Below are positions 20,587-43,479 of a DNA stretch of 64,000 nt, in pieces. This DNA comes from Halopenitus malekzadehii. Lineage in GTDB: Archaea; Halobacteriota; Halobacteria; Halobacteriales; Haloferacaceae. The position numbers and the translations under genes were made by a program. The notes under the pieces were generated by a model. The model saw only the letters and a list, made by a program, of their open reading frames with translations, made no database searches and was not told the DNA's origin. The DNA is taken from NCBI RefSeq assembly GCF_900108505.1, contig NZ_FNWU01000001.1:946725-1010724 (forward strand). The letters run 5' to 3'. Within the stretch, counting starts at the first letter, position 1; each line of letters starts with the position of its first letter.

Positions 20587-20630
20587 TCGAACCGGCCGCG
20601 ACCGCCGCGAGACGTGAACTCGGTCGCCGT

Positions 20631-20706: not shown

Positions 20707-20730
20707 ACGCGCGCCGTGTGGTAACGTGAG

Positions 20731-20738: not shown

Positions 20739-20762
20739 CCTGTCGGTCTGTTCTCTCGAACC

Positions 20763-22126: not shown

Positions 22127-22508
22127 CGACGGAGTGTCGGCGGCTGACGGCGAGGCGCCCTCGGCGAGCGTTCTCCAGGACCCGGCCGCCCTCGCGGACG
22201 CGGACCTCGATGACTGGGGCGTCGTCGACGAGCCGATCGAGGGCGAGTCGCGCACCGCCGGAACGGTCATCCACAAGGGCCCCGACGGTCGCTCCGAGTG
22301 CGGCGTGTGGACGTGTACTCCGGGCACGTGGAAGTGTGCGGTCGACCGCGACGAGTTCTGTTACTTCCTCGAGGGCCGTGCGACCTACACCCACGAGGAC
22401 GGCACCGTGATCGGGATCGAACCCGGGACTACGGTTCTGTTTCCGGCCGGCTGGACGGGGACGTGTCGCGTCGAGGAGACCGTTCGGAAGGTGTACATGA
22501 TCCGATGA
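22119..22508 (+). CDS. Cupin-domain protein (Cupin_3 type)
   Basis: A 129-residue single-domain beta-barrel. The cupin core lies at about residues 60-129 (CGVWTCTPGTWKCAVDRDEF, YFLEGRATYTHEDGTVI, GIEPGTTVLFPAGWTG). Members of this Cupin_3 group often sit beside amine oxidases and aldehyde dehydrogenases in polyamine catabolic loci, with unknown or regulatory roles. It overlaps the glycosyltransferase by 8 bases and the aldehyde dehydrogenase by 4 (ATGA), so translation is coupled. The usual cupin metal histidines are mostly replaced (Asp/Glu/Tyr in their place), so metal binding is uncertain. Confidence 0.8.
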   Translation: MADDGVSAADGEAPSASVLQDPAALADADLDDWGVVDEPIEGESRTAGTVIHKGPDGRSECGVWTCTPGTWKCAVDRDEFCYFLEGRATYTHEDGTVIGIEPGTTVLFPAGWTGTCRVEETVRKVYMIR

Positions 22509-24016: not shown

Positions 24017-24093
24017 GCGTGAACGCGCGTCGGGGTGACGTCTCCCGAGGCGAGGGTCCGAACGGGGATCGATGCCTCCGGACCGGCTCACGC

Positions 24094-25056: not shown

Positions 25057-25062
25057 CGACGG

Positions 25063-26094: not shown

Positions 26095-26192
26095 GGAACG
26101 TGATACTAACACTGCCTATAAGGATGTTTCGGGAGCCGACCGGCGAAAGGGTCTCGTCGCGGTCGGTCAATCCTGCGGGACGTCGCGTTCGG

Positions 26193-27608: not shown

Positions 27609-28259
27609 ACCGGTTCCTCTCCACAGCGGAGTATAAATGCTGCCGAAACCTGCCGCCCCAAGGGGCTCCTGCACGGTCGCCGAGATGGACGAGCGTCCCT
27701 GACGCCGTGGCGCTCCCGTCATCGACGGGATGGTGACACCACGACACTACCGATCGAATATGTGACTTCCTATCAATACTCTACGATATCATACACGTTC
27801 GATCCGTTCGCGTCCTGCACGGTACTTACAAAACGGGTGTTCGAACCTGTATGCCGTCTCTCTCTTTAGTATGCGGTTGATACAGCATCTGCGTTGGTGA
27901 TTCGATCGACGAACGTCGATCGTCCATCGCAGTCCGATGATCGTTGCCCTATTCAGCAGATTCGATGTACGGGAGCGCTGTAGCGTGTCGTCTCTCGTAT
28001 TCTCTCGTATTCTCTCGTTCCTCTCGGGCCTCTCGGGCCTCTCGTCCCGCTCGGCAGCCTCGTCCAATCCCCGGAGATCTATCTGATTGATGTATATTGT
28101 TGATAACCTATATTTGTGCCGTGTCACCTCGTTCGGCGGACTCATCACACTCGGCGGACTCATCGCTCCGAGTGTCGTGATGGCGACGGCGAAACCGTAC
28201 GCGAGATGGGGATCGGCGGGAGATGCTTCGATCGCCTGGATTCTCCGTCGTCGACGCGA
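27609..28259. other. Intergenic gap with short pyrimidine-rich repeats
   Basis: No gene is supported here. The stretch holds short direct repeats: TCTCTCGTAT twice plus a variant, then CTCTCGGGC twice (27991-28044), and a duplicated CGGCGGACTCATC around 28133-28163. AT-rich segments at 27760-27800 and 28085-28125 resemble promoters, but no start codon with a sensible frame follows. Long minus-strand frames across it have basic, non-haloarchaeal composition. Confidence 0.5.
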
Positions 28260-29918
28260 TCAGGCCGGAACGGCCGCGTCGGGGACGACGCCGTCCTCCC
28301 AGCCGCGGGCGTCGTAGTACTCCCCGAGGGCCTCCTCGAGGTCCGGCAGGTCGTACGGGAGCGTGTCGTCCTCGCGGTCGAGACCGCGCTGGTTGTTGAA
28401 GTGGCGCTCGAGCGTGACGATGCGGTCACCGACGGCGAGGAGGTCCTCGAAGTCGGCGCCGAACAGCGCCTCGTAGCGGTCCGGGTTCATGTAGTCCCGG
28501 GAGAACTTGCAGACGACGCCGGCGTCGTTGACCGCCATCAGGTTCTCGCGCTCGACGAGCCGGTCGGCCTTCCCGAGGGTGCCCTCGGGATCGAGGGCGT
28601 CCTCCTCGGGAACCAGGGGATACTCGACGGAGTAGAAGACCGAGTACATGTGGTCCGCGCCGCGGTTGGAGACGGCGTAGGAAAGCCCCTGTCCGTGAAG
28701 GACGCGCCCCTCGTGGGCCGCGAAGTCCATCCCCTTGACCGTCCAGTTCTCGACGCCGAGCTCCTCGTAGCATCGGTCGATCCCCTCCGCAAGCGTGTCC
28801 CCGATCCCCTCGCGGCGGGCGATCTTCTCGACGGTCTCGTGGATCAGATCGACGTCGCCGAACGCATCCTCGCTGGCGAGGTAGGCGGCCACGGTGTTGC
28901 CCGCCGAGATCGCGTCGAGGCCGTACTGGTCACACAGCTCGTTGGACTGCATCACGTCGACGATGTCGTCGACGCCGGAGTTCGAACCGAACGCCATCGC
29001 GACCTCGAACTCGGGGCCCTCGGTCTCGACGCCGCGCTCCTCGTCCCTCGTCGGGAGCTTGCACGCGAACGCGCAGGCCGAGCAGGTTCCCTTCTTGTAC
29101 TTTTTCTCCTCGACGGCCGAGCCGTTGATCCCCTCGACGCCCGCGAACTCGCGCTCGGAGAAGTAGTAGGAGGGCAGCCCCTCCATCGCGTTGGCGAGAT
29201 CCATCACCGCGACCGTCCCCTGTCGCTTCATGATGTTGTCGTCGGTGGCGGCCTCCCGATGGATCTCCATCTGGGTCGACGGGATCTCGATCTCGGGTGC
29301 CGAGTCGCCGCCGACGGTGATCGCCTTGACGTTTTTGGACCCCAGGACGGCGCCGAGCCCGCCGCGGCCGAACGCACGCTCCTCGGAGGTCATGATCGAG
29401 GCGAACCGGACCTGGTTCTCGCCGGCCGGGCCAATGACGGCAGTCTGGTCGGCGGTGATGTCGTGTTCTGCCTCCAGGTACGCCACCGTCTCGCCAACCG
29501 TCTCGCCGGCCAGTTCCGGAACCGGCTCGAACTCGACGCCGTCATCGCGGATGTGGATCGCGATCAGCTCGTCGCTTGCGCCGGTGATCTCGACCGCGCT
29601 GTAGCCCGTGTCGGCGAAGTTCCGGGACATAAAGCCGCCGGCGTTGCTCGAGAGCAAGCCGTCGGTCAGCGGCGAGACGCCGGTACAACTCATCCGCCCC
29701 GTGAAGCTCATCGTCGACGACTGCATCGGCCCCGTCGAGAACACGAGCCGGTTCGCCGGCCCGAGCGGGTCGGCGTCGAACGGGATACGCTCGTGGGTGA
29801 GTCGGGTGCCGACGCCCCGGCCCCCGATGTACTGCTCGTTGATCTCGGCGATGTCCTCACGTGCCGTCTCCCGGCTGCCGACGTCGATCGTCAACAGCGG
29901 ACCGCGGTTGTGGAGCAT
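28260..29918 (-). CDS. Tungsten-dependent aldehyde:ferredoxin oxidoreductase
   Basis: A 552-residue AOR-family enzyme. The N-terminal pterin-binding domain includes the YIGGRGVGTRLTHE segment, domain 2 carries the EERAFGRGGLGAVLGSKNVKA motif, and the [4Fe-4S] ligands are C279, C282, C286 (CSACAFAC) and C470 (VVCKFS). The family oxidises aldehydes to acids with ferredoxin as acceptor, using a tungsten or molybdenum bis-pterin. It has its own TATA element and is flanked by empty gaps, so it is a single-gene unit. It could act on aldehydes made by the neighbouring amine catabolism, or on amino-acid-derived aldehydes in general. Confidence 0.9.
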   Translation of the reverse strand: MLHNRGPLLTIDVGSRETAREDIAEINEQYIGGRGVGTRLTHERIPFDADPLGPANRLVFSTGPMQSSTMSFTGRMSCTGVSPLTDGLLSSNAGGFMSRNFADTGYSAVEITGASDELIAIHIRDDGVEFEPVPELAGETVGETVAYLEAEHDITADQTAVIGPAGENQVRFASIMTSEERAFGRGGLGAVLGSKNVKAITVGGDSAPEIEIPSTQMEIHREAATDDNIMKRQGTVAVMDLANAMEGLPSYYFSEREFAGVEGINGSAVEEKKYKKGTCSACAFACKLPTRDEERGVETEGPEFEVAMAFGSNSGVDDIVDVMQSNELCDQYGLDAISAGNTVAAYLASEDAFGDVDLIHETVEKIARREGIGDTLAEGIDRCYEELGVENWTVKGMDFAAHEGRVLHGQGLSYAVSNRGADHMYSVFYSVEYPLVPEEDALDPEGTLGKADRLVERENLMAVNDAGVVCKFSRDYMNPDRYEALFGADFEDLLAVGDRIVTLERHFNNQRGLDREDDTLPYDLPDLEEALGEYYDARGWEDGVVPDAAVPA

Positions 29919-30409: not shown

Positions 30410-31594
30410 CTACTCGAGGATCACTTCGCAGGCGCCGACCGGGAAGCTCACCGTGACGTCGTCGCCGGCCTCGAACTCGTCGACTTCCTCGTTGACCTGC
30501 CGTTCGACCTGGAAGGTGTGGCCGTCGACGTCGACCTGGTACACCTTCAGCGATCCCTTATAAATGGCGTCGGTGACGGTCCCGGTCCACTCGTTGGCGT
30601 AGCCGCGGCTCTCGCCGGGTGGCGTGAGGACGACCTCCTCAGGTCGGACCGAGACCCCGACGGATCGACCCGCGTGGTCAGGATACTCGCCGATGGCGAC
30701 GTCCGGCCCCTCGTCACTCTCGAGGACGGTGCCGTCGTCGTCGATCGTCCCCTCGAACAGGTTCGTTTCGCCGATGAACGTGGCGACGAACTCCGTCTCC
30801 GGCGACTTGTACAGCGAGTCGGTCGGCCCGACCTGCTCGATCCGGCCGTCGTTCATCACCGCGATCCGGTCGGACATCGTCAGCGCTTCCTCCTGATCGT
30901 GAGTCACGTAGATGAACGTGATCCCCAACTTCTCCTGGATATCCTTGAGCTCGACCTGCATATGCTGGCGGAGCTTCCGATCGAGGCTCGCCAGCGGCTC
31001 GTCCAGCAGGAGGACGTCCGGCTCGCGGACGATCGCACGTGCCATCGCGACGCGCTGTTTCTGGCCGCCCGACAGCTCGGTCGCCTGGCGCTCGTGATAG
31101 CCGGGCAGCTCGACCATCTCCAGCGCCTCCGTGACGCGTTCCTCGCGCTCGTCCTCGGGAACGCCGTCCATTTCGAGGCCGAAGGCGATGTTCTCCTCGA
31201 CGGTCATGTGCGGGAACAGCGCCCACTCCTGGAACACCATACTGGTGTTGCGCGCGTTGGCGGGTACGTTCGTCACGTCCTCGCCGCTGATCGATACCGT
31301 TCCGTCGGTGGGGGTCTCGAGGCCGCTTATCATCCGCAGGGTGGTCGATTTCCCGCAGCCGGACGGGCCCAACAGCGTGAGGAACTCGCCGGCCTCGATC
31401 TCGAGGTTCACGCCGTCGACCGCGACGACGTCGTCGAACTCCTTTCTGAGCGCGTCGAGTTGGACGGTACCGCGCGTCGACGCCGCCGCGGCGCCGTCCA
31501 TTGACGGGGTCGTTCCTCCGTTCCGGTCCGCCGCCTCGTCGTGGTCCGTCTCGGCCGATTCCTCGGGGTCGTGTGTATCCATTTTGGTACTCAT
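30410..31594 (-). CDS. ABC importer ATPase (PotA type), importer 2
   Basis: A 394-residue ATPase with an acidic, low-complexity N-terminal extension of about 40 residues. The nucleotide-binding domain then shows Walker A GPSGCGKSTT, signature LSGGQKQRVAMARAI, Walker B VLLLDEPLAS and the YVTHDQEEALT H-loop. A TOBE domain follows (from about 280; SVGVSVRPEEV). The spermidine/putrescine PotA subfamily fits best. It follows the binding-protein gene by 51 bases on the same strand; the permeases are divergent. Downstream alternative starts (for example M5) would remove only part of the extension. Confidence 0.92.
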   Translation of the reverse strand: MSTKMDTHDPEESAETDHDEAADRNGGTTPSMDGAAAASTRGTVQLDALRKEFDDVVAVDGVNLEIEAGEFLTLLGPSGCGKSTTLRMISGLETPTDGTVSISGEDVTNVPANARNTSMVFQEWALFPHMTVEENIAFGLEMDGVPEDEREERVTEALEMVELPGYHERQATELSGGQKQRVAMARAIVREPDVLLLDEPLASLDRKLRQHMQVELKDIQEKLGITFIYVTHDQEEALTMSDRIAVMNDGRIEQVGPTDSLYKSPETEFVATFIGETNLFEGTIDDDGTVLESDEGPDVAIGEYPDHAGRSVGVSVRPEEVVLTPPGESRGYANEWTGTVTDAIYKGSLKVYQVDVDGHTFQVERQVNEEVDEFEAGDDVTVSFPVGACEVILE

Positions 31595-31645
31595 AATGAA
31601 CTCCCGGGTAATGAACGCCCGGGTGTTGACCGCTGCTGCGGGCGC

Positions 31646-32803
31646 TTAGATGCTGCTTTCGGCCTTCGCTTCCTCCCACATATCCGTCCACTGGTCGGTC
31701 ATGGGGGAGAACTCGTAGGGCGTGGTTCGGTTGGCGATGTCCTCGGCCGCGTCGAAGCCTTCGTCGGTGAACATAAGCGCCTCCTGTTCGTCGGCGCTGA
31801 AGAGGTCGAACGACTCCGTGTTGACCGGCGGGCTCTTCGCGGCGGGCTCCCAGGCGATGCTGCGCTGGCCCTCGGGGGAGATGACGGTGTTCATGAACTC
31901 GATCGCGAGCTCGCGGTTCGAGGGGTCCTTCACAAGACACAGCCCCTCCGTCCACTGCATCCCGCCCTGCTCGGGCAGGACGACGTTGACCCAGTCGTTG
32001 CCCTCCGCGCGCAGCTCCGACATCGTGAAGTTCCCGACCGGCGAGATGACGATGTCCTCCTGGAGGAACGCCTGACGGATGGCGCTGGTCCCGCTGTAGA
32101 TCGCGGTGAACTGGTCGAACATCTGCACCAGGTGGTCGAAGACGTCGTCCAGCTGCTCGTCGGTCTGTTCGAACGGCGGGTATCCGAGCGTCTGTGCGAT
32201 CTTCGGGATGTTCCAGGTCGGCCAGTCCATGATCCCCATTCGATCGGTATACTGCCCGTCCGGCCCGCCCGTCCAGAGGACCTCGTAGGAGTCGTAATGG
32301 CCCTCCTCGACCTGGTTCGTGTTGACTGTCAGCGTGTCCCATCCCCATCGGGTCGGGAGCGCGTACATCTCGTCGTCGTACTCGAAGGAACTGAACGGCC
32401 ACTGGAACTCGCTCAGGAAGTTGTCCATCGCCGGGAAGTCGTCCGGATTCAGTGGCTCGATCGTCCCCGCCTCCGCGTGGCGGGCCGCCCAGGTGTTGTT
32501 AAGCGTGAGCAGGTCGTAATCCTCCGTCCCGCCGCTCTCGAGGATGTTCAGCCCCTCGGGATCGCTTGAGAGGAGGCTGATGTTGACCGTCGCGTCGTGT
32601 TCCGATTCGAACGCATCAACGATCGTGTCCGTGCCGTACCCCTCCCAGGTGAGGACGTTCAGTTCGGTCGTACCGCCGCCGCCGAGACAGCCGGCCACCG
32701 CCGCGGTTCCGACCGCGCCGGCAGCCTGAACGAACCGACGGCGTGACGCCGCGGAGTGCCCGGATCCGGTCGTGTCACTCGAGTCAGGTGTGGGGGAAGT
32801 CAT
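31646..32803 (-). CDS. ABC importer substrate-binding lipoprotein (PotD type), importer 2
   Basis: A 385-residue exported lipoprotein. It has a Tat motif ASRRRFVQAAG (residues 19-29) and a lipobox ending at Cys39 (AVAGCLGG). The mature part begins ELNVLTWEGYGTDTIVDAF, a start characteristic of spermidine/putrescine binding proteins. ATPase and binding protein form a minus-strand pair and the two permeases a plus-strand pair, sharing a 278-base promoter region. Together they make a complete PotABCD-type importer. Confidence 0.9.
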   Translation of the reverse strand: MTSPTPDSSDTTGSGHSAASRRRFVQAAGAVGTAAVAGCLGGGGTTELNVLTWEGYGTDTIVDAFESEHDATVNISLLSSDPEGLNILESGGTEDYDLLTLNNTWAARHAEAGTIEPLNPDDFPAMDNFLSEFQWPFSSFEYDDEMYALPTRWGWDTLTVNTNQVEEGHYDSYEVLWTGGPDGQYTDRMGIMDWPTWNIPKIAQTLGYPPFEQTDEQLDDVFDHLVQMFDQFTAIYSGTSAIRQAFLQEDIVISPVGNFTMSELRAEGNDWVNVVLPEQGGMQWTEGLCLVKDPSNRELAIEFMNTVISPEGQRSIAWEPAAKSPPVNTESFDLFSADEQEALMFTDEGFDAAEDIANRTTPYEFSPMTDQWTDMWEEAKAESSI

Positions 32804-32834
32804 CTTGGGTCTACAGTAGCATGCCTCGCTATCG

Positions 32835-33056
32835 TATATAAATCTTTCTTATTTATCCATCATTTTGGGCGTATCGTACGACCGAGTTCAACTACCTTGC
32901 CCTTTCTTGAATTTTAGTTCGATTCAAGCGGGATCGCGCCACGCGGCCCATCGTTGCGTCGCCGCCCCCTCCCCCCGTCTTGCCGCTTTCGTGGCGCCGT
33001 CGGCCGTGAACCGGATACGTCTCCGAACTGTGGGTGTCGCGATCGGAAGATATATT
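32835..33056. promoter_or_regulatory. Divergent promoter region of importer 2
   Basis: A minus-strand TATA element at about 32835-32843 (GATTTATATA read on that strand) serves the binding-protein gene. A plus-strand AGATATATT at 33048-33056 lies 26-34 bases before ATG 33082. The latter decides the permease start: the upstream GTG 33034 would precede the TATA element. No clear operator was recognised between them. Confidence 0.5.
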
Positions 33057-33081
33057 GGATAGAGTTCGATCAAAGGGGAGT

Positions 33082-33978
33082 ATGGTGGAGACTCACAGTA
33101 GAACAGATACCATAGTTCGAACCATACTCGATCGCGTCCGCGAGTCGAACAGCTTCCTCGTGACCGGCGGGCCCATCCTCCTTCTCGAGGTGCTGTTCTT
33201 TCTGGCTCCCGTGGCGATCATGTTCTACATCGCCACGACCGGGATGGAAAGCCTCGCGTTAACGGTGGATTTCGGCCTCAGTAACTACACCGCGGTGTAC
33301 ACGAGGGCGGCCAACCGGGTGGCGTTCATCAACACGACGCTGATCGCGCTGGTGACGACCGCGACGGCGGTCGTCGTCGCCTATCCGTTCGCCTACTACA
33401 TCGCCCGGTTCGGCGGGAAATACAAGAACATCCTGCTCGTGCTCGTGATGATCCCCTTCTGGACGAATTACATCGTCCGCGTGTACGGCTGGCAGATCAT
33501 TCTCGGCACGCAGGGCGTGCTCAACGGGCTGTTGGTCTCTCTTGGGATCATCAACGAGCCGATCGGCTGGCTCCTGAACACCAAGTTCTCGATCTGGCTC
33601 GGCTTGACCTATCTCTGGTTGCCCTTCATGATTCTCCCGCTGTACACGAGCCTCGAGAAGCTCGACGAATCGCTGATCGAGGCCGCCTACGATCTGGGAG
33701 CGAGCCGACGTGAGGTGTTCAAGCGGATCGTTCTCCCGCTTTCGATCCCCGGGCTGGTCGGGGGGATCATCTTCGTGTTCATCTTCAGTATGGGCGCGTA
33801 CATCGTGCCCGCGATGATCGGCGGCGGCGAACTGTTCGTCGGAACCCGGATCGCGTACGCCTTCGGCATCGGTAGCGACTGGCCGCTCGGGGCTGCCCTC
33901 GGCAGCGTCCTGATGTTGATCGTCGGCGGCGTGCTGTGGAGTCTGATGGGCTACACCAATATGGAGGAGATGTTCTGA
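33082..33978 (+). CDS. ABC importer permease (PotB type), importer 2
   Basis: A 298-residue permease with about six membrane segments (first at residues 28-50). It has the family segment PFWTNYIVRVYGWQIILG and the EAA loop SLIEAAYDLGASRREVFKRI. It starts the plus-strand half of importer 2 and is followed after 2 bases by the second permease. Confidence 0.92.
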   Translation: MVETHSRTDTIVRTILDRVRESNSFLVTGGPILLLEVLFFLAPVAIMFYIATTGMESLALTVDFGLSNYTAVYTRAANRVAFINTTLIALVTTATAVVVAYPFAYYIARFGGKYKNILLVLVMIPFWTNYIVRVYGWQIILGTQGVLNGLLVSLGIINEPIGWLLNTKFSIWLGLTYLWLPFMILPLYTSLEKLDESLIEAAYDLGASRREVFKRIVLPLSIPGLVGGIIFVFIFSMGAYIVPAMIGGGELFVGTRIAYAFGIGSDWPLGAALGSVLMLIVGGVLWSLMGYTNMEEMF

Positions 33979-33980
33979 CG

Positions 33981-34826
33981 ATGAGCGTCGACGCCACACC
34001 CTCCGACGGGACCGCCGCCGAGGAGTCCGCAGGCCAGTCGCCGATGAATACGGTGTTGAACGCCGTCAGTGGATACTGGATGCCGGTCTGGGCGATCCTC
34101 GTCTTCGGGTTCCTGTACGCGCCGATCGCCGTCCTGATCCTCTTCTCCTTCGAGCAGGGAACCTTCTCCGGGTTCCCCTGGGACGGGTTCACGATGCAGT
34201 GGTACGTCCAGATGGTCAACGACGACCGACTCATCCAATCCACGCTCAACAGCCTCTACGTGGGCGCGTTCGTCACCACTGGCGCGACGATCCTCGGCAC
34301 GCTCGGGGCGATCGCCTTGGTTCGCGGCAGCTTCCGCCGGAAGGGACTGTTCCGCGCGCTCGTCATCGCACCGATGACGATTCCCGGACTCATTCTCGGG
34401 ATCGCGTTGCTGCTCTGGTTCAACATGATCGGGTTCAACACGTCGCTGCGCACCGTGATGCTCGGACAGCTCGTCTTCGTGACCCCGTTCGTGCTCATCA
34501 CCGTGAGTGCGCGCCTGCGCGGGTTCGACCCCGAGCTCGAGGAGGCCGCCCGCGATCTGGGTGCCAGCAAGTGGCAGACCTACCGCCGGGTGACCCTGCC
34601 GATCCTGATGCCCGGGATCATCAGCGGCGCGCTGTTCGCGTTCACGCTCTCGTTCGACGACTTCCTGATCGCCTTCTTCACCAGCGGCGTGGAGAACACG
34701 CTCCCGATCTACATCTGGTCGAAGGTCCAACACGGGACTGACCCGGTCATCAACGCGATCAGCGCGATGGTGCTGCTGTTCAGCATCTCGCTCATCGTCG
34801 TCAGTGAACTGCTTCGACAGCGGTAG
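33981..34826 (+). CDS. ABC importer permease (PotC type), importer 2
   Basis: A 281-residue permease. ATG 33981 (MSVDATPSDG) lies 2 bases after the previous stop. An acidic cytosolic N-terminus of about 28 residues is followed by six membrane segments and the EAA loop ELEEAARDLGASKWQTYRRV. The C-terminal segment SFDDFLIAFFTSGVENTLP is typical of PotC. No promoter lies between the two permease genes. Confidence 0.92.
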   Translation: MSVDATPSDGTAAEESAGQSPMNTVLNAVSGYWMPVWAILVFGFLYAPIAVLILFSFEQGTFSGFPWDGFTMQWYVQMVNDDRLIQSTLNSLYVGAFVTTGATILGTLGAIALVRGSFRRKGLFRALVIAPMTIPGLILGIALLLWFNMIGFNTSLRTVMLGQLVFVTPFVLITVSARLRGFDPELEEAARDLGASKWQTYRRVTLPILMPGIISGALFAFTLSFDDFLIAFFTSGVENTLPIYIWSKVQHGTDPVINAISAMVLLFSISLIVVSELLRQR

Positions 34827-34969: not shown

Positions 34970-37306
34970 TCAGCCGTGACGTGGGAGCTCCGAGAGGACG
35001 TCGTCCAGCGCCGCAAGGAGTCGGTCCGCGTGTTTCCGTTCGAACACCAGCGGCGGTCGGATCTTCAGGACGTTTCCGTCCGCGCCGGTTGACCCAATGA
35101 GTACCCGGCGCTCACGGAGTCCGTTGACCACCGCAGTCGTCTCGTCGGGTGCCGGCTCCCACGTCTCGCGATCGCGAACGAGCTCGACGCCGATCATCAG
35201 TCCGCTCTGCCGAACCTCGCCGACGAGTTCGTGGTCGGCGCCGAGTTCCCGCAGTCCGTCTCCCAGGCAGGCGCCGACGTCGACGACGTGGTCCAACAGG
35301 TCCCGGTCATCGATCTCGTCAAACACCGCCAACGCGGCCACACAGGAGACGGGGTTCCCGCCGAAGGTGCTGAAAAAGCCGGTTCGGTCGTACAGGGCCG
35401 ACGCGACGTCCGACCGCGTCACGACGGCAGCGACCGGGTGTCCGTTGCCCATCGGCTTGCCGAGCGTGACGACGTCGGGAACGACGTCCGCGTTCCGGAA
35501 GCCCCAGAGGGCCTCTCCCGGTCGGCCGAACCCGGACTGTACCTCGTCCGCGATGACGAGTCCTCCCGCCTCGCGAACGCGATCGGCCATCGACGTCAAT
35601 CGTTTCTCGTCGGGCGGATGGATCCCATCGCTCGTGAACAGCGGATCGAACATCCACGCCGCGGTTTCCGTCCCCCGTTTCTCGAGGGTTGCCAGCGACT
35701 CGGTCATCTTCTGGACCGGATCCGTCCCTGCTCGGTCCCCGTGATGAGCATCGTCGATCGGGGGAGCGACGGTCTCGACGTGGTCCGGATCCATCCCCTC
35801 GGGCCAGATCGTCGGGGACTGTGCGGTCGTCGCCTCCGTGATCCCGTGATACGCGTTCCTCGAGACGATCGCGCCGCCGTTGCCGGTGGCAGCCCTGGCC
35901 AGTCGCCACGCGGTGTCGGTCGCTTCGCTGCCGGAGTTGACGAACAGGACGCGATCCAGCTCCTCGGGCATCGTCGCCAGGATCCGGTCGGCCAGCTCCA
36001 CCGGCGCTTCGTGAAGGTACCGCGTGTTGGTGGCCAACGTACGGGCCTGTCCCGCGATGGCGTCCGCGACCGCTGGGTTCGCGTGCCCCACGACGGGGAC
36101 GTTGTTGTACGCATCGAGATACTGGCGACCGTCCGGGTCGAACAGCCACACTCCATCGCCGTCGACGAAATGAACGGGGTCGTCATACGAGAGCGGCGAC
36201 GATCCGAGCACGTCCCGTCGTCGAGACAGTAATTCAGACGTGTCCGTCCGAGAATACGGGACGGCTCCGGATTTCGCGGCGGCTTGGAGGCGGCGACCGA
36301 CGGCGTCCAGCCCCCGTTCATCGAGCGATCGCAGGAGGTCCCACCCGTCATCGACGCCGTCCACGCTGTGGGCGTCCGTCTTTTCGGGATGCTCCGCGAG
36401 CCGCCACGCGACGGTGACGCCCCAGGTGAGGTGTCGTGCCGCGACGAGATCCGCCAGCAATTCCGCCTCCTCGTCCTCGAGGGGTGTGACGCTGACGTAC
36501 CCTCGGATCACGTCCTGGGCCGCCTCGATCGGGTCCTCGCGACGGTACATCACGCTCGCCACCGCCATCACCAGGTCACTCACGAGCGCGGTGTGGGTGA
36601 GATCGCCGAAATCGACGATGCCGCCGACGCGATCGGCACCGTTCAGGAGGACGTTATCCAGCGTGAGGTCGTTGTGGATCACCTGCGCACGGAACGAATC
36701 GAACTCGGGCTCGACCCGGTCCTCGTACCGATCGAGGATCCGTTCCGCGAGCTCGCGTCGCTCGGCGTTGGTCACGCTGTCGAGCAGCGACCGAAGTTCG
36801 GGGACGTGCCGCAGATCCCACAGGATATCGTAGTCGGCGTCGGGATGGAAGAAGCCGCGCAATGCTTTCCCGAGCCGTGCCACGACCGCCCCGTATTTGA
36901 AGAGCGCCTCCGCGTCGAGGTCCTGGCCCGGAACGGGGCGTCCCGGAACGTGGGTGAACAGCCGCACGTGATACGTCTCGTCATCCTCGATGGTCGTCCA
37001 TAGCGATCCATCGGTCGTCGGCACCGGCTCCATCACCGGGAGGTCGGGATCGGTCCGTTGGATATGACGCAGCGCCTCCGTCTGCAGATCGAGCGATGCC
37101 TCGTCATCAGCCGGGCTGGAGACCTTCAGGACGTACGCCTCGCCGTCGTCGACGTCGATCCGAAAGTTCTGGTCCCGTTCCCCGCCGAGTTCGGTGGCCG
37201 TCCCCTGGGTGCCGAACTCCCGCTCGGCGATCCGCGCCGCCCGCCGTTCATCTATGGTCGGGGGTTGTACGACAAATGGCTCTATCAAGGTGGCTGCATC
37301 CGTCAT
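34970..37306 (-). CDS. Fusion of APH-type kinase and class III aminotransferase/phospho-lyase
   Basis: A 778-residue two-domain protein. Residues about 20-340 are an aminoglycoside-phosphotransferase/choline-kinase-like fold with the catalytic loop H211-N-D213-LTLDN218 and metal Asp232 (IVDFGDLTHT). Residues about 360-778 are a class III PLP enzyme with D587 (IADEVQSGFGR) and PLP lysine K617 (VVTLGKPMGNGHP). The GKPMGNGHP form is the one seen in ethanolamine-phosphate and 5-phosphohydroxy-L-lysine phospho-lyases. A plausible reaction is ATP-dependent phosphorylation of a hydroxy-amine followed by loss of phosphate and ammonia to an aldehyde or semialdehyde. It lies between an importer and a PuuA-like ligase, consistent with import and breakdown of hydroxylysine, ethanolamine or a similar amine. 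Bacterial relatives often add a peptidase domain, absent here. Confidence 0.85.
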   Translation of the reverse strand: MTDAATLIEPFVVQPPTIDERRAARIAEREFGTQGTATELGGERDQNFRIDVDDGEAYVLKVSSPADDEASLDLQTEALRHIQRTDPDLPVMEPVPTTDGSLWTTIEDDETYHVRLFTHVPGRPVPGQDLDAEALFKYGAVVARLGKALRGFFHPDADYDILWDLRHVPELRSLLDSVTNAERRELAERILDRYEDRVEPEFDSFRAQVIHNDLTLDNVLLNGADRVGGIVDFGDLTHTALVSDLVMAVASVMYRREDPIEAAQDVIRGYVSVTPLEDEEAELLADLVAARHLTWGVTVAWRLAEHPEKTDAHSVDGVDDGWDLLRSLDERGLDAVGRRLQAAAKSGAVPYSRTDTSELLSRRRDVLGSSPLSYDDPVHFVDGDGVWLFDPDGRQYLDAYNNVPVVGHANPAVADAIAGQARTLATNTRYLHEAPVELADRILATMPEELDRVLFVNSGSEATDTAWRLARAATGNGGAIVSRNAYHGITEATTAQSPTIWPEGMDPDHVETVAPPIDDAHHGDRAGTDPVQKMTESLATLEKRGTETAAWMFDPLFTSDGIHPPDEKRLTSMADRVREAGGLVIADEVQSGFGRPGEALWGFRNADVVPDVVTLGKPMGNGHPVAAVVTRSDVASALYDRTGFFSTFGGNPVSCVAALAVFDEIDDRDLLDHVVDVGACLGDGLRELGADHELVGEVRQSGLMIGVELVRDRETWEPAPDETTAVVNGLRERRVLIGSTGADGNVLKIRPPLVFERKHADRLLAALDDVLSELPRHG

Positions 37307-37374: not shown

Positions 37375-38694
37375 CTAGACCGTCTTCACGTACTGGTCGC
37401 GTTCCCAGTCGGTGACGTGGTTCCGGAACGCCTCCAGCTCGCGCCGCTTGGAGGCCGCGTATACGCGCACGACGTCCTCGCCGAGGAGATCGACCATCGC
37501 GTCGTCGGTTTCCAGCGCCCGCAACGCGACCTCCGGCGAGCGCGGGAGCACCGGCCGATCGTCGGTCGGGTCGCCGGTCGTCGGGGTGGGCGGCTCCAGC
37601 TCGCGCCGGAGCCCGTCGAGACCGGCGGCGATCGTCCCGGCGATGACGAGGTAGGGATTGGCGTCGGCACTGGCGATCCGCGTCTCCGTCCGGACGACCC
37701 CCGGCGGCACGCGGACCGCGGTCATCCGGTTGTCGTACCCCCACGAGGCGGTGTAGGGCGCGAACGAGTTCGGCTCGAACCGTTTGAAGCCGTTGATGCT
37801 TGGCGTCCCCAGCGCGGCCAGCGCGTCGGCGTGGTCCATCAGGCCGCCGACGAAGTGCCGGCCTCGCTCGGAGAGGGTTCCGTCCGCGTCACCCGCGTCG
37901 GCCGTCTCGAAGACGTTCTTCTCGTCGTCGAACGCGCTCACGTGGAGGTGGTAGCCGCTACCCGACCGGTCGTCGAACGGCTTCGCCATAAACGTCGGCC
38001 ACTGGTCAAAGCTGCGGCCGGCCTGCTTGACGAGCCGCTTGAAGTCGAACGTCGTGTCCGCCTGTTCGAGCGGGCGGCCGTAATCGAACAGCACTTCCAG
38101 TTGTCCGGGCCCGTGCTCGTGGTGGAGTGCGGTGAGATCGATGCCGTAGTCGCCGGCCCAGTCGACGATCCGGTCGTAGAATCCCGCGACCTCCTCGGTC
38201 GCCCAGGAGACGCACTCGTGGTTGTCGTCGGTGGCCGGGGTGAACTCGCCGTCGGGGGTCTCCTCCAGGAGGTAGAACTCCAGCTCGCTGCCGGCGTAGA
38301 AGTCGAATCCGAAGTCGTTGGCCGACAGCACCGATTCGAGCACCGCCCGCGGCGAACACGCCAACCGCTCGTCCTCGTGGAAGAACCGACACAGGACTCG
38401 CACGGCGTTCTCGCGCCAGGGGAGCCGCATCGTCGTCTCCGGAATCGGATGCACGGTTCCGTCGGCGTGACCGATCTCCGCGCCAAGCCCGGATCCCTCG
38501 GGGACGTGGTTGCGCGGCGTCTGGGCCAACAGCACGAGGTTCATCGCGAACCCGTCCGCCCACTTCTCGAGGAACGCGTCCGCGGTGAGCTGTTTCGACC
38601 GGGAGATCCCGTTGACGTCGGCGAACTCGATGAACACGTGGTCGATCGCGGGATCCTCGATCGTCTCGACCATCCGGTCTGCCGCCTGGCTCAT
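37375..38694 (-). CDS. Glutamine synthetase-family ligase, probable gamma-glutamyl-amine (PuuA-like) ligase
   Basis: A 439-residue GS-fold ATP-dependent ligase. It has the short beta-grasp N-terminus (HVFIEFADVNGISRSK) and the catalytic core with ELEFYLLEE, HHEHGPGQLEVLFDYG, SGSGYHLHVS and RFEPNSFAPYTASWGYDNR followed by RIASADANPYLVIAG. The length and the missing adenylylation-loop region match the GlnA-like/PuuA group that gamma-glutamylates amines, and not the housekeeping enzyme. The neighbours (class I amidotransferase, class III aminotransferase, polyamine importers) make gamma-glutamylputrescine or a similar amine the best guess. The start at 38694 is divergent from the amidotransferase at 38854. 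Confidence 0.85.
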   Translation of the reverse strand: MSQAADRMVETIEDPAIDHVFIEFADVNGISRSKQLTADAFLEKWADGFAMNLVLLAQTPRNHVPEGSGLGAEIGHADGTVHPIPETTMRLPWRENAVRVLCRFFHEDERLACSPRAVLESVLSANDFGFDFYAGSELEFYLLEETPDGEFTPATDDNHECVSWATEEVAGFYDRIVDWAGDYGIDLTALHHEHGPGQLEVLFDYGRPLEQADTTFDFKRLVKQAGRSFDQWPTFMAKPFDDRSGSGYHLHVSAFDDEKNVFETADAGDADGTLSERGRHFVGGLMDHADALAALGTPSINGFKRFEPNSFAPYTASWGYDNRMTAVRVPPGVVRTETRIASADANPYLVIAGTIAAGLDGLRRELEPPTPTTGDPTDDRPVLPRSPEVALRALETDDAMVDLLGEDVVRVYAASKRRELEAFRNHVTDWERDQYVKTV

Positions 38695-38819
38695 TCGAGC
38701 ATCGCCTCCCTGCGGGCCGATCCCCAGCGGGCTGATCCCCAGCTGGTCGATCGCTGTGTGGTATCTAGTCTCATTGGTTATGTGCCACCGTCTGGATGTG
38801 GGTTACAGTCAAGGTACAA

Positions 38820-38827
38820 TAATTTAT
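38820..38827 (+). promoter_or_regulatory. TATA element of the amidotransferase gene
   Basis: TAATTTAT lies 27-34 bases before ATG 38854, so the message starts at or within a few bases of the start codon. Confidence 0.5.
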
Positions 38828-38853
38828 CCTTCTTGGGATACGAGGGACGATCG

Positions 38854-39486
38854 ATGATCCTCGTCCTCGACGACGAAGTACAGCCTGAGTACCGATACCT
38901 CGGCACGGAGATCGCCGCGTTCACGCCCGATAGCGAGTATCACGTCTACGCGGAGGACCCGGAGACGCCTCCGCTCTCGCGGTTCGACGGCGTGATCGTG
39001 AGCGGCTCCACCGCGAGCGTCTACGAGGACGGCTATGACTGGTTCGACGACCAGCGCTCGCTCGTTGAGACGTGTCGGGAAGAATCGATCCCGCTTTTAG
39101 GCGTCTGTTTCGGCCACCAACTGATCAACGACGCCTTCGGCGGCGAGGTGATCGAGGATCGCCGCCGGGCGACGTTCGTCGAGATGACCACGCTCGACGC
39201 GGACGACCCGATCCTGGCGGGCGTGAACCCGGTCGTTCCGGTGCTTCACTCGGACCTCGTCGTCGAACCCGGCGAGGGAATGGAGCCGATCGCCGAGACC
39301 GACTACAACAACCACTTCTGCACCCGCCACGTCGACGCGCCGATCTGGACCGTGCAGTTCCATCCCGAGTTCACCGAGCGCGTCCGCGACCGGCCGAGCG
39401 ACTGGTCCGACGGCGATCACTCCTTCGGCGAGTGTAACGCGACGGCGGTGTTGGAGAACTTCGCCGCGTACTGTCGGGACCGATAG
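38854..39486 (+). CDS. Class I glutamine amidotransferase, candidate gamma-glutamyl hydrolase (PuuD-like)
   Basis: A 210-residue free-standing class I GATase. The triad is C85 (LLGVCFGHQL), H170 and E172 (VQFHPEFTE). Stand-alone GATases of this shape are annotated either as GMP-synthase-like amidotransferases or, in amine catabolism, as hydrolases that free GABA or the amine product from gamma-glutamyl conjugates. Standing head-to-head with a PuuA-like ligase and next to an aminotransferase favours the second role. ATG 38854 is set by the TATA element; an upstream open frame is antisense read-through of the ligase. Confidence 0.8.
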   Translation: MILVLDDEVQPEYRYLGTEIAAFTPDSEYHVYAEDPETPPLSRFDGVIVSGSTASVYEDGYDWFDDQRSLVETCREESIPLLGVCFGHQLINDAFGGEVIEDRRRATFVEMTTLDADDPILAGVNPVVPVLHSDLVVEPGEGMEPIAETDYNNHFCTRHVDAPIWTVQFHPEFTERVRDRPSDWSDGDHSFGECNATAVLENFAAYCRDR

Positions 39487-39528
39487 CGCGCGAAAAAGCC
39501 GATAGCACGGGAACGGCCGACGGCTACC

Positions 39529-40854
39529 TCACTCGAAGACGGCGGCGAACGATTCGTCGAGCGCGTCGAGGGCCTCCTCGACGTCGTCCTCATCGATGCA
39601 TAGCGGCGGCGAGAGGGTGATCTGGTAGTCGGGCCGGCCGAGCCCCACGAGGACGCCGCGATCCTTGGCCTCGCCAAGGACCTCGCTGACGGGGTTGTCG
39701 ACGTCGTCGTCGACCCAGGAGTTCGCGAACGGCTCGCCCGTCTCGGGGTTCTCCACCACGATACCCCACAGGAGCCCCTTCCCGTGAACGTGGGAAATCT
39801 CGTCGTACGAGTCCGCGAGATCGTGAAGGCCCTCCTCCAACAGCGCACCCATCTCCCGGCCGTTCTCGATGAGGTGGTCCTCGTACTCGTCGATCGCCGC
39901 GAGTCCGGCGGCACAGCCCAGCGGGTGGCCCGCGAAGGTCTGTCCGACATCGGTGCCGTCCTCGCGGATGTCGTCGGCGATCTCCTTGCGCATCAGGACG
40001 CCCGCAAGGGGAACGTACGCGCTCGTCACGCCCTTCGCGAAGGAGATCATGTCCGGATCGACGCCCTCGTCCTGCATCGCGAACATCTCGCCACAGCGGC
40101 CGAATCCCGCGATCACCTCATCGGCGATGAGCAGGACCCCGTACTCGTCACAGATCTCCCGCAGGCGCTCGAAGTAACCCTCGGGTGCGGGATAGGCACC
40201 GCTCGAACCCGCCACCGGCTCCATCAGGATCGCGGCCACGGAGTCGGGGCCCTCGTTGCGGATCACGTATTCGACGTGGTTGGCGGCCTGTTCGGCGAGC
40301 TCCTCGCCCTCGGCGTCGAAGACCGACGGGAGGGGCGGCAGGAACTTGCCCGATCCGGTCACCGCGGCGTGGGAGTTGACGTTGTTCCGCGTGCTGGGGT
40401 CGGCGGTGAGCGCCGCGGTTCCGTAAGTGCTGCCGTGATAGGACTGCCACCGGGTCAGGACCTTCGAGGCGTCGCGGTACTCGCGGGCGTACTGGACGGC
40501 CAGCTCGTTCGCCTCGCTACCCGACACCGAGAAGACGACGTCGGTGAGCGGCTCCGGCGAGACCTCGGCGAGTCGGCGGGCCAGCTTCGTCCGCGTGTCG
40601 TTCTCCTTGCCCGAGGAGACGTACGGAATCCGGTCGAGTTGCGTCTTGACCGCGTCGATGATCGCCTGGTTGTCGTGGCCGGCGTTGACGCAGTAGAGCG
40701 ACGCGATGAAATCGAGATACGACTCACCCTGGTCGTCGATCACCCGCGCACCCTCGCCGTGGGTTATCGGCGCGCTGTCGCCGTCCGGATCGTACCAGTG
40801 GGGGATCCAATCTGGATCGTCAGCCAACTGTTGTGCACTTTGATCGGAGCTCAT
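39529..40854 (-). CDS. Class III PLP-dependent aminotransferase (omega-amine type)
   Basis: A 441-residue fold-type I aminotransferase. The PLP lysine is K274 (MISFAKGVTSAYVPLAG), the ring-binding aspartate is D245 (LLIADEVIAGFGR), and the phosphate loop is VSGSEANE. Family members transfer amino groups from omega-amines such as GABA, putrescine, beta-alanine or taurine to pyruvate or ketoglutarate. Its place beside PuuA/PuuD-like genes suggests a GABA or diamine aminotransferase. It is transcribed convergently with the amidotransferase (42-base gap) and has its own strong TATA element. Confidence 0.88.
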   Translation of the reverse strand: MSSDQSAQQLADDPDWIPHWYDPDGDSAPITHGEGARVIDDQGESYLDFIASLYCVNAGHDNQAIIDAVKTQLDRIPYVSSGKENDTRTKLARRLAEVSPEPLTDVVFSVSGSEANELAVQYAREYRDASKVLTRWQSYHGSTYGTAALTADPSTRNNVNSHAAVTGSGKFLPPLPSVFDAEGEELAEQAANHVEYVIRNEGPDSVAAILMEPVAGSSGAYPAPEGYFERLREICDEYGVLLIADEVIAGFGRCGEMFAMQDEGVDPDMISFAKGVTSAYVPLAGVLMRKEIADDIREDGTDVGQTFAGHPLGCAAGLAAIDEYEDHLIENGREMGALLEEGLHDLADSYDEISHVHGKGLLWGIVVENPETGEPFANSWVDDDVDNPVSEVLGEAKDRGVLVGLGRPDYQITLSPPLCIDEDDVEEALDALDESFAAVFE

Positions 40855-40879
40855 CCGAGTAAATCCTTCACGGTCATAC

Positions 40880-40888
40880 TATATATTA
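40880..40888 (-). promoter_or_regulatory. TATA element of the class III aminotransferase gene
   Basis: Minus-strand AATATATAG lies 26-34 bases before the ATG at 40854. Confidence 0.55.
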
Positions 40889-41063
40889 GTTGTGCGTCAC
40901 CGGCGGAACGGCGATGTACCGGCGGAAGACGGCCGTGAGGCCGTCGTTCGGTCCCGTCACCGATCGGTGCCGCAGGGCTGTGGCGGCCCGTCCCGCGGAG
41001 TTGGATAGGATCTAACGAGACGTTCATCGGTGAAAGGGAAGACAAGGTTTCCGGAATAATTGG

Positions 41064-41091
41064 TTTTATTATCCTAGACTCGAGAGAGTCT
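41064..41091 (+). promoter_or_regulatory. TATA element and overlapping palindrome ahead of the cyclodeaminase-family gene
   Basis: TTTTATTA (41064-41071) is 24-31 bases before ATG 41095. Between them sits the perfect palindrome-like AGACTC-GAGA-GAGTCT (41076-41091), covering the expected transcription start. A repressor bound there would block initiation. Candidate regulators are the Lrp protein at 42991 or the IclR protein at 16700. Confidence 0.5.
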
Positions 41092-41094
41092 GGT

Positions 41095-42084
41095 ATGTCT
41101 GTCCTGTTGCTGTCCAGCGAGGACGTCGAAACGCACGCCCGTATGACCGACGTCATCCCGGCCGTCGAGGAGGCCTTCGCGGCCTACGAGCGCGGCAGCG
41201 TTCAGATGCCCGCAAAATCATACATCGAACTGGAGCGGTACAACGGCGACTTCCGGTCGATGCCGGCGTATATGGATGCCGGCGACTGGGACGCCGCCGG
41301 GATCAAGTGGGTCAACGTCCACCCAGACAACCCCGAGAAACACGATCTGCCCACGGTGATGGGGACGATGATCTACTCGGACCCCGAGACCGCGCTGCCG
41401 CTGTCGATCATGGACGGTACGGCGCTGACGATGCAGCGCACCGGTGCCGCGGCGGCGGTTGCGACCGACCATCTGGCGATCGAGGACGCCTCGACGCTCG
41501 GGATCGTCGGCGCCGGCATCCAGTCGTACACCCAGGTCGAGGCGATCGCCGAGGTGCGACCGATTACCGAGATCGTCGTGAGCGATCTCGATGAGGATCG
41601 GATCGCTCGGTTCATCGACCACTTCGAGGACGACTTCGACGTTCGCGCGGGCTCGATCGCCGAGGCCGCCTCCTGTGACGTCCTCTCCACGGTCACGCCC
41701 GTGCGCGAACCGATCGTGAGCCTCGATGACGTGGGTGAACACACCCACATCAACGCGATGGGCGCCGATGCGGCGGGCAAACAGGAGCTCGAGACCGCGG
41801 TGTTGGAGGCTGCCAAGTTGACGATCGACGACCACGCGCAGACCACCCACTCCGGGGAGATCAACGTCCCCTACGGACGGGGAGAGATCGAGGATCCCCA
41901 CATCTACGCCGAGATCGGTGAGATCGTCGCCGGGGCCAAGCCCGGCCGAACCGACGACGACGGGATCACCGTGTTCGACTCCACCGGCCTGGCGATCCAG
42001 GACGTCGCCGCCGCGCGCGTCACCTACGAAGCGGCCAACGACGCGGACGCTGGGACGACCTTCGACCTGATCGATACGTCCTGA
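41095..42084 (+). CDS. Ornithine cyclodeaminase / archaeal alanine dehydrogenase family protein
   Basis: A 329-residue mu-crystallin-type enzyme. The substrate lysine lies in GIKWVNVHPDNPEKH and the NAD-binding loop is GIVGAGIQSYTQVEAI (about residues 140-155). The family includes ornithine cyclodeaminase, archaeal alanine dehydrogenase, delta1-pyrroline-2-carboxylate reductase and ketimine reductases. In this context it could regenerate pyruvate-derived amino groups for the omega-aminotransferase, or reduce a cyclic imine such as pyrroline-2-carboxylate from proline-type substrates. The sequence alone does not decide. Confidence 0.88.
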   Translation: MSVLLLSSEDVETHARMTDVIPAVEEAFAAYERGSVQMPAKSYIELERYNGDFRSMPAYMDAGDWDAAGIKWVNVHPDNPEKHDLPTVMGTMIYSDPETALPLSIMDGTALTMQRTGAAAAVATDHLAIEDASTLGIVGAGIQSYTQVEAIAEVRPITEIVVSDLDEDRIARFIDHFEDDFDVRAGSIAEAASCDVLSTVTPVREPIVSLDDVGEHTHINAMGADAAGKQELETAVLEAAKLTIDDHAQTTHSGEINVPYGRGEIEDPHIYAEIGEIVAGAKPGRTDDDGITVFDSTGLAIQDVAAARVTYEAANDADAGTTFDLIDTS

Positions 42085-42307: not shown

Positions 42308-42736
42308 ATGACCACCACCCGTGCGGCCGATATGACACGCACGGCGACCGTGTTCCGGCACGGCAGCTTCTGGTACACGACGATCCCGCCGGCGAGAACG
42401 GGGCCGAGTGGACCGGGCGGCTCGCCTACCGCGAGCACCATCCGGATCGACCCCGAGTGGGTCCGCACCATCAACCGGATCCTCCGGATGGAGATCTCCG
42501 ACCGGATCGAGTGGGTAGAACCCGATCTGCAACTCGTCAGCGCCGGCCAGGATCCGGGGGCGGTCGATCCGCTCGCCGGGATCGACGCGAACGTCGACGC
42601 CGATACCGTCGCGGATGCCGCGACCACCACGCGGAGTACTGGTCGACGCTCGAATGAGCTGAATTCCCATCCAAGAGTGAGTAATAAATCAGGATATTGT
42701 TCCGAGTATCGTGGTATTTTGAACTTTTATTCATAA
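42308..42736 (+). CDS. Hypothetical protein or gene remnant
   Basis: A frame of 142 residues from ATG 42308. The middle is acidic and protein-like (IDPEWVRTINRILRMEI, then SDRIEWVEPDLQLVSAG), while the last 30 residues run into AT-rich DNA with unlike composition. No family is recognised and no TATA element lies at a suitable distance. It may be the tail of a decayed gene whose upstream part is lost. The remaining gap (42117-42307 and 42737-42990) shows no gene. Confidence 0.3.
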   Translation: MTTTRAADMTRTATVFRHGSFWYTTIPPARTGPSGPGGSPTASTIRIDPEWVRTINRILRMEISDRIEWVEPDLQLVSAGQDPGAVDPLAGIDANVDADTVADAATTTRSTGRRSNELNSHPRVSNKSGYCSEYRGILNFYS

Positions 42737-42990: not shown

Positions 42991-43479
42991 ATGGACGAAA
43001 AAGACCTGCGTATCCTCAAGACGATCGCATCGGAACGGATCAACAGCCCGGAACGGATCCACGAACACACGGGGATCCCCAAATCAACCGTTCACTACCG
43101 GATCGAACAGCTTCGAGAAAAGGGCGTCATTCTGAACGATCTTTACGAGATGGACCTCTCGAAGGTGGGACTCTCCATCGTGTTGATAAGCGAAGTGTAC
43201 GCCGAGTACGAGGAGGATTACCACGAGTCCGTCGGCGAGCGGATCGGCGAGATCGAAGGGGTCAACCAAGTGTACTTCACGATGGGCGATACCGACTTCA
43301 TCGTCATCGCCCACGTCACCGACCGGCGGATGGTCGAGGACCTCGTGGAGTCCTACGAGTCGATCGACGAGATCCGCCGCACCAGCTCGAAGTTCGTGAT
43401 CACCACGGTCAAAAACGAGAGCCACCCGATCAACGACTTCGAGCACGAAACGCTCGTCGAGGCGATCCTGGAGGAGTAG
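42991..43479 (+). CDS. Lrp/AsnC-family transcriptional regulator
   Basis: A 162-residue protein. The N-terminal helix-turn-helix (MDEKDLRILKTIASER, then TGIPKSTVHYRIEQLREKG) is followed by the RAM/AsnC ligand-binding domain (about residues 70-150, GVNQVYFTMGDTDFIVIA). Such regulators sense amino acids and control transport and catabolism. ATG 42991 is taken as start because the 23-residue extension from GTG 42922 is strongly basic. However, a TATA-like ATTAATA at 42884-42890 would place the message start close to that GTG, so a 70-80 base leader or the longer form are both possible. It stands next to the amine catabolic genes and may regulate them. Confidence 0.88.
   Translation: MDEKDLRILKTIASERINSPERIHEHTGIPKSTVHYRIEQLREKGVILNDLYEMDLSKVGLSIVLISEVYAEYEEDYHESVGERIGEIEGVNQVYFTMGDTDFIVIAHVTDRRMVEDLVESYESIDEIRRTSSKFVITTVKNESHPINDFEHETLVEAILEE

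Follow-up and report, generated by a model that had tools for sequence, protein, structure and literature searches.

Gene content of the window

We analyzed a 64,000-nucleotide stretch of Halopenitus malekzadehii DNA, referred to here as the window, and established its gene content and the family of each gene directly (Table 1). A gene of the glutamine-synthetase fold and a gene of the class-I glutamine amidotransferase type stand with their start codons facing each other, 159 bp apart, followed by an aminotransferase gene. The original prediction had described this head-to-head arrangement together with the residues C85, H170 and E172, and we confirmed its coordinates, domains and residues. 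These three residues form a Cys-His-Glu catalytic triad that is also present in relatives.

Table 1. Genes and gene remnants considered in the window
Feature	Coordinates	Strand	Remarks
DAO-family FAD oxidase DAO1	8941-10050		
DAO-family FAD oxidase DAO2	15322-16455	-	resembles oxidases next to ligases in other genomes; may correspond to PuuB
Importer 1, PotD-like binding protein and two permeases	17626-20586	+	ATPase encoded separately
Importer 1, ATPase	25063-26112	-	
Aldehyde dehydrogenase	about 22490-24016	+	
Aldehyde ferredoxin oxidoreductase	28260-29918	-	possible but unspecific partner
Importer 2, PotA-like ATPase	30410-31594	-	TIGR01187 377 (cut-off 355.6)
Importer 2, PotD-like binding protein	31646-32803	-	distant from solved polyamine binders
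Importer 2, two permease genes	33034-34826	+	PotB/PotC-like
Fusion of APH-family kinase and phospholyase-type class-III PLP domain	34970-37306	-	778 aa
Predicted gamma-glutamyl-amine ligase, glutamine-synthetase fold	37375-38694	-	439 aa; Pfam Gln-synt_C 280 bits
Class-I glutamine amidotransferase-type hydrolase	38854-39486	+	210 aa; Pfam GATase PF00117 81 bits; C85/H170/E172
Class-III (omega-type) aminotransferase	39529-40854	-	Pfam 281 bits
Predicted alanine dehydrogenase, OCD/mu-crystallin family	41095-42084	+	Pfam 321 bits; best PDB match 1OMO 291 bits
Remnant of histone-deacetylase-family (acetylpolyamine amidohydrolase type) gene	42452-42577	+	internal deletion; tblastn E 2e-9 and 7e-8
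Lrp/AsnC-type regulator, kept at island edge	42991-43479	+	domain match, neighbourhood conservation

Two PotABCD importers had been predicted. Two Pot-family sets are indeed present, and importer 2 combines an ATPase above the PotA cut-off with two permeases and a PotD-type binding protein. The ATPase of importer 1, however, scored 317, so that only the importer 2 ATPase passed the TIGR01187 cut-off. The importer 2 binding protein matched solved polyamine-type binders weakly (25-45 bits). In alignments with matches of at most 45 bits, it appears substituted at the amine-binding carboxylates of SpuD and PotF.

The gene at 41095-42084 had been called a cyclodeaminase homologue. Judged by its nearest relatives, it is of the alanine-dehydrogenase type and not a cyclodeaminase: it matched the archaeal alanine dehydrogenase 1OMO far better than the OCD structure 1U7H (102 bits), and its best NCBIfam match was TIGR02371, at 363.6 bits, which is below the curated cut-off of 409. 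At the place equivalent to that of the deacetylase remnant, the same-genus genomes G017 and G061 carry an intact gene.

The kinase-phospholyase fusion adjoins the ligase gene and was left out of the original prediction. Its PLP half best matched the O-phosphoethanolamine phospho-lyases 5G4I (334 bits) and 6TOR (290 bits), while other class-III enzymes gave 183 bits or fewer. The fusion differs from both in carrying an APH-type kinase, with the sequence motif HNDLTLDN...DFGD.

The ligase and the facing hydrolase

The ligase retains E137, E139, E193, E200, H249, H251, R305, R323, R328, E337 and R339, which are metal, glutamate and ATP residues. Relative to glutamine synthetase, D50 is replaced by N52, S53 by L55 and E327 by F311, and the adenylylation tyrosine is absent. 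Loss of D50 and E327 has also been published for GlnA3, PauA7 and GlnA4 (PMC5403932, PMC6529630). The ligase scored 261 against a cut-off of 470 for TIGR03105, and it fell below the curated cut-off of the gamma-glutamylputrescine synthetase equivalog NF045547 (GGputSyn; 247 versus 650 bits).

In our phylogeny, the ligase sits inside the bacterial PuuA/IpuC clade with support of 100/100, and its grouping with GlnA-1, a separate copy of which is present in the same genome, was rejected (AU p 0.0098). The tree thus agrees with the prediction of a PuuA-type ligase separate from housekeeping glutamine synthetase. On this sequence evidence, the protein is not a glutamine synthetase; it is a member of an uncommon lineage of haloarchaeal ligases that branches among those of the bacterial PuuA/IpuC type. 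We also attempted a firm separation from Haloferax GlnA-2. The two proteins stand apart in the best tree and uniting them costs 26 log units, but the separation lacks statistical firmness because the AU p value was 0.075. The lineage is carried by 8 of 194 genomes; bacterial-like, patchy and often plasmid-borne, it was probably acquired. Annotations of some haloarchaeal genes as "glutamine synthetase family" are likely misleading.

We propose the amidotransferase-type protein as a candidate gamma-glutamyl amide hydrolase. The more specific description as PuuD-like did not hold: identity to E. coli PuuD was 24% over 70 aa, the PuuD model was absent among the NCBIfam matches listed, and the main family is PF00117, with PF07722 reaching just 36 bits over 35 residues. 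A search of 194 genomes found the gene in all eight ligase genomes at at least 64% identity, and beyond these carriers in only two further genomes, at 55-58%.

Conserved linkage and a candidate gamma-glutamylation route

Conservation of the arrangement seen in the window reaches 86-94% in genomes of the same genus and about 67-85% in members of a second family, so it is not due to chance. The order Lrp, alanine dehydrogenase, aminotransferase, amidotransferase, ligase is preserved across the two families, and all eight loci with the alanine dehydrogenase also have the aminotransferase. We compared the surroundings of 18 ligases with 18 control loci around other glutamine synthetase genes, mostly GlnA-1 (L172 and L173 are of the GlnA-2/3 type). 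PotABC-like genes occurred near 15 of the 18 ligases, class-III aminotransferases near 16, the deacetylase type near 7 and agmatinase near 4; the control loci gave 2 for PotA, 2 for aminotransferases and none for the other two. Since the ligase-carrying genomes are related to one another, these counts are not independent. Agmatinase and SSADH are annotated beside the ligase of Haloarcula sp. JP-L23, and Actinobacteria also have divergent ligase/amidotransferase pairs. The five kinds of enzyme predicted to lie near each other (ligase, FAD oxidase, aldehyde dehydrogenase, hydrolase and aminotransferase) are all present in the window, and the latter four, plus an importer, recur around the ligases of relatives. 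Because agmatinase, the acetylpolyamine-amidohydrolase type and PotABCD recur, the gene context points to putrescine or a polyamine as substrate.

Both DAO oxidases and the aldehyde dehydrogenase had been expected to serve the amine branch and a hydroxyproline branch together. This was too broad: of the three, only DAO2 and the aldehyde dehydrogenase co-occur with ligases. We rejected DAO1 for the amine branch, as ligase-adjacent oxidases of other genomes match DAO2 far better (for example, 437 versus 104 bits); DAO1 is located with a racemase/DHDPS pair. The aldehyde dehydrogenase occurs in 5 of 194 genomes, all five of them ligase carriers, and it accompanies the ligase even in genomes that have no hydroxyproline genes in their islands. 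Sharing with the hydroxyproline branch is possible, and nothing found requires it.

Two genes were rejected as specific pathway markers. The aminotransferase has an orthologue in 38 of 194 genomes, mostly without the ligase, and the aldehyde ferredoxin oxidoreductase is excluded as a marker by its presence in 134 of 194, though its gene neighbours that of the amidotransferase in G046 and an amidotransferase remnant in G180.

The reading we favor, and consider reasonably probable, is an accessory catabolic island that uses gamma-glutamylation on an amine, either taken up or produced by the cell itself, with putrescine or a close polyamine as the likeliest candidate. Importer 2 would take up the amine, and the ligase would couple its amino group to glutamate using ATP. 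The free amino end could then be converted to an aldehyde by the class-III aminotransferase, presumably with pyruvate as acceptor, or by DAO2; the alanine dehydrogenase would regenerate pyruvate and release ammonium. The aldehyde dehydrogenase, or possibly the aldehyde ferredoxin oxidoreductase, would yield a gamma-glutamyl amino acid, from which the amidotransferase-type hydrolase would recover glutamate and release an amino acid, for example GABA. Aminotransferases may feed this amino acid into central metabolism.

Several observations count against this reading. These are the NF045547 score of the ligase, the distant importer 2 binding protein with its apparent carboxylate substitutions, the fusion beside the ligase, which has no place in the standard putrescine route, the broken deacetylase gene in this genome, and the relatedness of the genomes behind the linkage counts.

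The fusion raises an alternative that we consider unlikely, namely that the compound joined to glutamate is an amino alcohol or a hydroxylated amine (of the ethanolamine, alaninol, isopropanolamine or hydroxylysine type), with the fusion as core enzyme turning the amino alcohol into an aldehyde. In its favor, the fusion gene comes immediately after the ligase gene in the window, in two genomes of the same genus, and in G028, Natrinema and Natronosalvus; the closest matches of its PLP half are O-phosphoethanolamine phospho-lyases; and the Streptomyces ethanolamine ligase GlnA4 shares the Phe at the E327 position (PMC6529630). This Phe, however, is common to other bacterial members of the clade, and just 6 of the 18 ligases have the fusion nearby. 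Three genomes carry the fusion without any ligase, and its neighbours there, which we inspected for a substrate, were uninformative. Furthermore, no alcohol dehydrogenase was recognized beside the ligase, and it is agmatinase and the deacetylase type that recur. It also seems doubtful that the island encodes a separate archaeal version of gamma-glutamylation, with a pyruvate-type aminotransferase and alanine dehydrogenase standing in for the PuuB oxidase, a tungsten aldehyde ferredoxin oxidoreductase substituting for the aldehyde dehydrogenase or supporting it, and the fusion extending the range to hydroxylated amines.

Alternatively, an accessory island might have brought together two independent pathways that share nothing but their location, one of them the gamma-glutamyl-amine pathway and the other, unrelated to it, an aminotransferase/alanine dehydrogenase or amino-alcohol pathway. 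This would fit the wide distribution of the aminotransferase and the aldehyde ferredoxin oxidoreductase, and taurine aminotransferase as the nearest solved relative of the former. The gene order kept across two families argues against this, as does G180, where the alanine dehydrogenase, aminotransferase and agmatinase genes stay together although the ligase is missing, and we regard it as rather improbable. An ammonia-assimilating role for the ligase, as a diverged glutamine synthetase whose fold it has in common, is extremely improbable and already largely refuted by the replaced D50 and E327, the rejected grouping with GlnA-1 and the genome's own GlnA-1.

Comparison with known amine-degrading systems

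The favored putrescine or polyamine route resembles the E. coli Puu pathway (PuuA-PuuD, PuuE) in the ligase gene divergent from that of an amidotransferase-fold hydrolase, as in puuA/puuD, and in the oxidase, aldehyde dehydrogenase and aminotransferase kinds. In contrast to E. coli, the island ligase is 31% identical to PuuA, the hydrolase falls outside the PuuD family, the oxidase is distantly related to PuuB (25%), an ABC importer takes the place of PuuP, and an aminotransferase is paired with an alanine dehydrogenase.

Streptomyces GlnA3 and GlnA4 and Pseudomonas PauA7, which have likewise lost D50 and E327, gamma-glutamylate polyamines or ethanolamine, the same type of reaction as proposed here, and GlnA4 also has an amidotransferase or hydrolase nearby. 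They differ in being bacterial and in their substrate-site residues and transporters. The isopropylamine pathway of IpuC (Paenarthrobacter pTC1) similarly clusters a glutamine-synthetase-like ligase, amidotransferases, an aldehyde dehydrogenase, an AsnC-type regulator and alanine dehydrogenase; its P450/ferredoxin hydroxylation is missing from the island, and the ligases are 33% identical.

The published archaeal precedent is Haloferax mediterranei GlnA-2 (HFX_1688), a haloarchaeal ligase that also lacks D50 and E327 and for which putrescine use is proposed. Its glutamate-putrescine ligase activity (PMC8394153) is the only archaeal case shown by experiment. The paper describes MATE and ABC transporter neighbours, names no hydrolase gene in the available text, and leaves open the route beyond this first step. 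The island ligase is 34% identical to L148, the probable HFX_1688 orthologue, and the best tree puts the two in different clades, a split without firm statistical backing (AU p 0.075). Here, the island brings together candidates for the import, hydrolysis, deamination and oxidation steps. It would represent a bacterial-type amine breakdown, most likely for nitrogen and carbon, of which only the first step is established in archaea, and deleting its genes one at a time offers a direct test of an archaeal polyamine pathway.

The island and genes linked to the ligase

The island around the predicted gamma-glutamyl-amine ligase is real and conserved, and it probably serves amine catabolism through gamma-glutamylation, with putrescine or a relative as the substrate. 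Its moderate interest lies in the candidate genes that it supplies for missing archaeal steps of this pathway. All elements named in the original prediction were located in the haloarchaeal window sequence where it had placed them. The ligase and amidotransferase stand head-to-head, separated by 159 bp, and alignment identified the amidotransferase catalytic residues C85, H170 and E172. Actinobacterial contigs also carry divergent ligase/amidotransferase pairs with C/H/E conserved.

Features of the window
Feature	Coordinates	Strand	Remark
Proline racemase family, DHDPS family, DAO1	6941-10050		consecutive
DAO1 oxidase	8941-10050
Module	15322-27722		DAO2, IclR regulator, importer 1, UGT-like glycosyltransferase, aldehyde dehydrogenase, ROK kinase, phosphohexomutase
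DAO2 oxidase	15322-16455
Importer 1	17626-20586
Aldehyde dehydrogenase (ALDH)	22490-24016
Importer 2	30410-34826
Kinase-phospholyase fusion	34970-37306	-	778 aa
Ligase	37375-38694	-
Amidotransferase	38854-39486	+
Class-III aminotransferase	39529-40854		after amidotransferase
OCD-family gene	41095-42084		after aminotransferase
Putative histone-deacetylase-family remnant	42452-42577

Genes within 12 kb of 18 ligase loci and of 18 control loci around other glutamine synthetase (GS) genes, mostly housekeeping GlnA-1 (L172 and L173 are of GlnA-2/3 type); the ligase loci are mutually related, so the counts are descriptive
Gene	Ligase loci	Controls
PotABC-like	15/18	PotA 2/18
Class-III aminotransferase	16/18	2/18
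Amidotransferase	13/18	0/18
Lrp	10/18	0/18
DAO	9/18	0/18
Alanine-dehydrogenase type	8/18	0/18
Histone-deacetylase family	7/18	0/18
ALDH	6/18	0/18
Agmatinase	4/18	0/18

Ligase orthologues (>50%) occurred in 8 of the 194 Halobacteria genomes sampled; the amidotransferase (≥64%) was found in exactly these eight, and at 55-58% in two further genomes. Among the carriers identified by name are Natrinema, Natronosalvus, Natronorubrum, Haladaptatus, Natribaculum, Halomarina, Natrialba magadii and Haloarcula sp. JP-L23, several with plasmid-borne ligases. The next relatives in the same search were bacterial (≤38%), and the simplest reading would be that haloarchaea acquired the ligase once from bacteria and then passed it among themselves. 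N. magadii has three ligases of the haloarchaeal clade on two plasmids (L157, L044), and two of them, on pNMAG01, sit among two PotABCD-type importers. Natrinema gelatinilyticum and Halorubrum sp. Hd13 have further ligase-like fragments 3' of their intact ligases (L053:14600-15000; L054:11800-12300). The amidotransferase beside the JP-L23 ligase is unannotated and split into frames (L158:11150-11768), and looks broken in that record. A related island without ligase (L191, G180) contains agmatinase, aminotransferases, two aldehyde dehydrogenases, Lrp, an alanine-dehydrogenase type, an amidotransferase fragment and aldehyde ferredoxin oxidoreductase.

Candidate enzymes of oxidation and amino-group transfer

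The original prediction suggested that the aldehyde dehydrogenase and both DAO oxidases might be shared with a hydroxyproline branch. This sharing may exist but is unnecessary, because the aldehyde dehydrogenase (≥75%) was confined to 5 of 194 genomes, each a ligase carrier with the gene in the same island, oxidases adjoining ligases match DAO2, not DAO1, and DAO1 lies next to racemase and DHDPS-family genes. No racemase or DHDPS match was found in the examined stretches of the ALDH-bearing N. magadii and N. hulunbeirensis islands. The racemase-family protein carries the two motifs with catalytic cysteines, MCGHGT and SPCGTGT, and its three-gene stretch is consistent with a hydroxyproline module. 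The DAO2 module recurs beside ligases in Natrialba and partly in Natronorubrum.

The supposed cyclodeaminase homologue proved nearest to an alanine dehydrogenase, that of Archaeoglobus, which it matches at 291 bits; its match to ornithine cyclodeaminase 1U7H reaches 102 bits. Where present in the ligase locus set, this type is always accompanied by the aminotransferase; if pyruvate is, as we infer, the acceptor, alanine dehydrogenase recycling would be a natural coupling. The aminotransferase and aldehyde ferredoxin oxidoreductase are common in haloarchaea. The fusion joins an APH-type kinase to a PLP domain nearest O-phosphoethanolamine phospho-lyases; we treat it as probably accessory because it lies near 6 of 18 ligases and also occurs without one.

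Substrate clues

Putrescine is the product of agmatinase, which directly adjoins the amidotransferase in one genome (G080) and lies near the cluster in G028, Natronosalvus, N. magadii and JP-L23, accompanied in the last by an annotated succinate-semialdehyde dehydrogenase. Acetylpolyamine amidohydrolases belong to the histone-deacetylase family, and Natrialba, Natribaculum and Haladaptatus have proteins annotated 'class II histone deacetylase' close to the ligase. The two same-genus genomes also have this family in their islands, intact between Lrp and OCD; what is left in the window is a pair of short segments with homology to residues 5-29 and 221-244 of the G017 domain, which we read as an internally deleted remnant. 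The binding protein of the importer is only distantly related to polyamine binders of known structure. Arginine decarboxylase and agmatinase occur in 10/10 haloarchaeal genomes, and therefore provide an internal putrescine source (PMC3102087).

The ligase among known enzymes

As predicted, the ligase stands apart from housekeeping glutamine synthetase, of which the genome has one (GlnA-1), its only other GS gene: grouping the two was rejected (AU p 0.0098). A placement with Haloferax GlnA-2/3 was disfavoured, short of rejection (AU p 0.075). GlnA-2 was represented by L148, probably an orthologue of the glutamate-putrescine ligase HFX_1688, since 18/19 tabulated residues agree at published numbers (PMC8394153). 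In the 64-row tree, the ligase falls in a haloarchaeal clade of 16 rows (100/100) nested within a PuuA/IpuC-type clade of 44 rows (100/100). Aligned on known GS positions, it retains the metal ligands and the ATP and glutamate residues and has lost D50 (N52), S53 (L55), E327 (F311) and the adenylylation tyrosine (T377); the Y179 column is unreliable, the expected residue being absent from the reference row itself. PauA7, GlnA3 and GlnA4 have likewise lost D50 and E327 (PMC5403932, PMC6529630).
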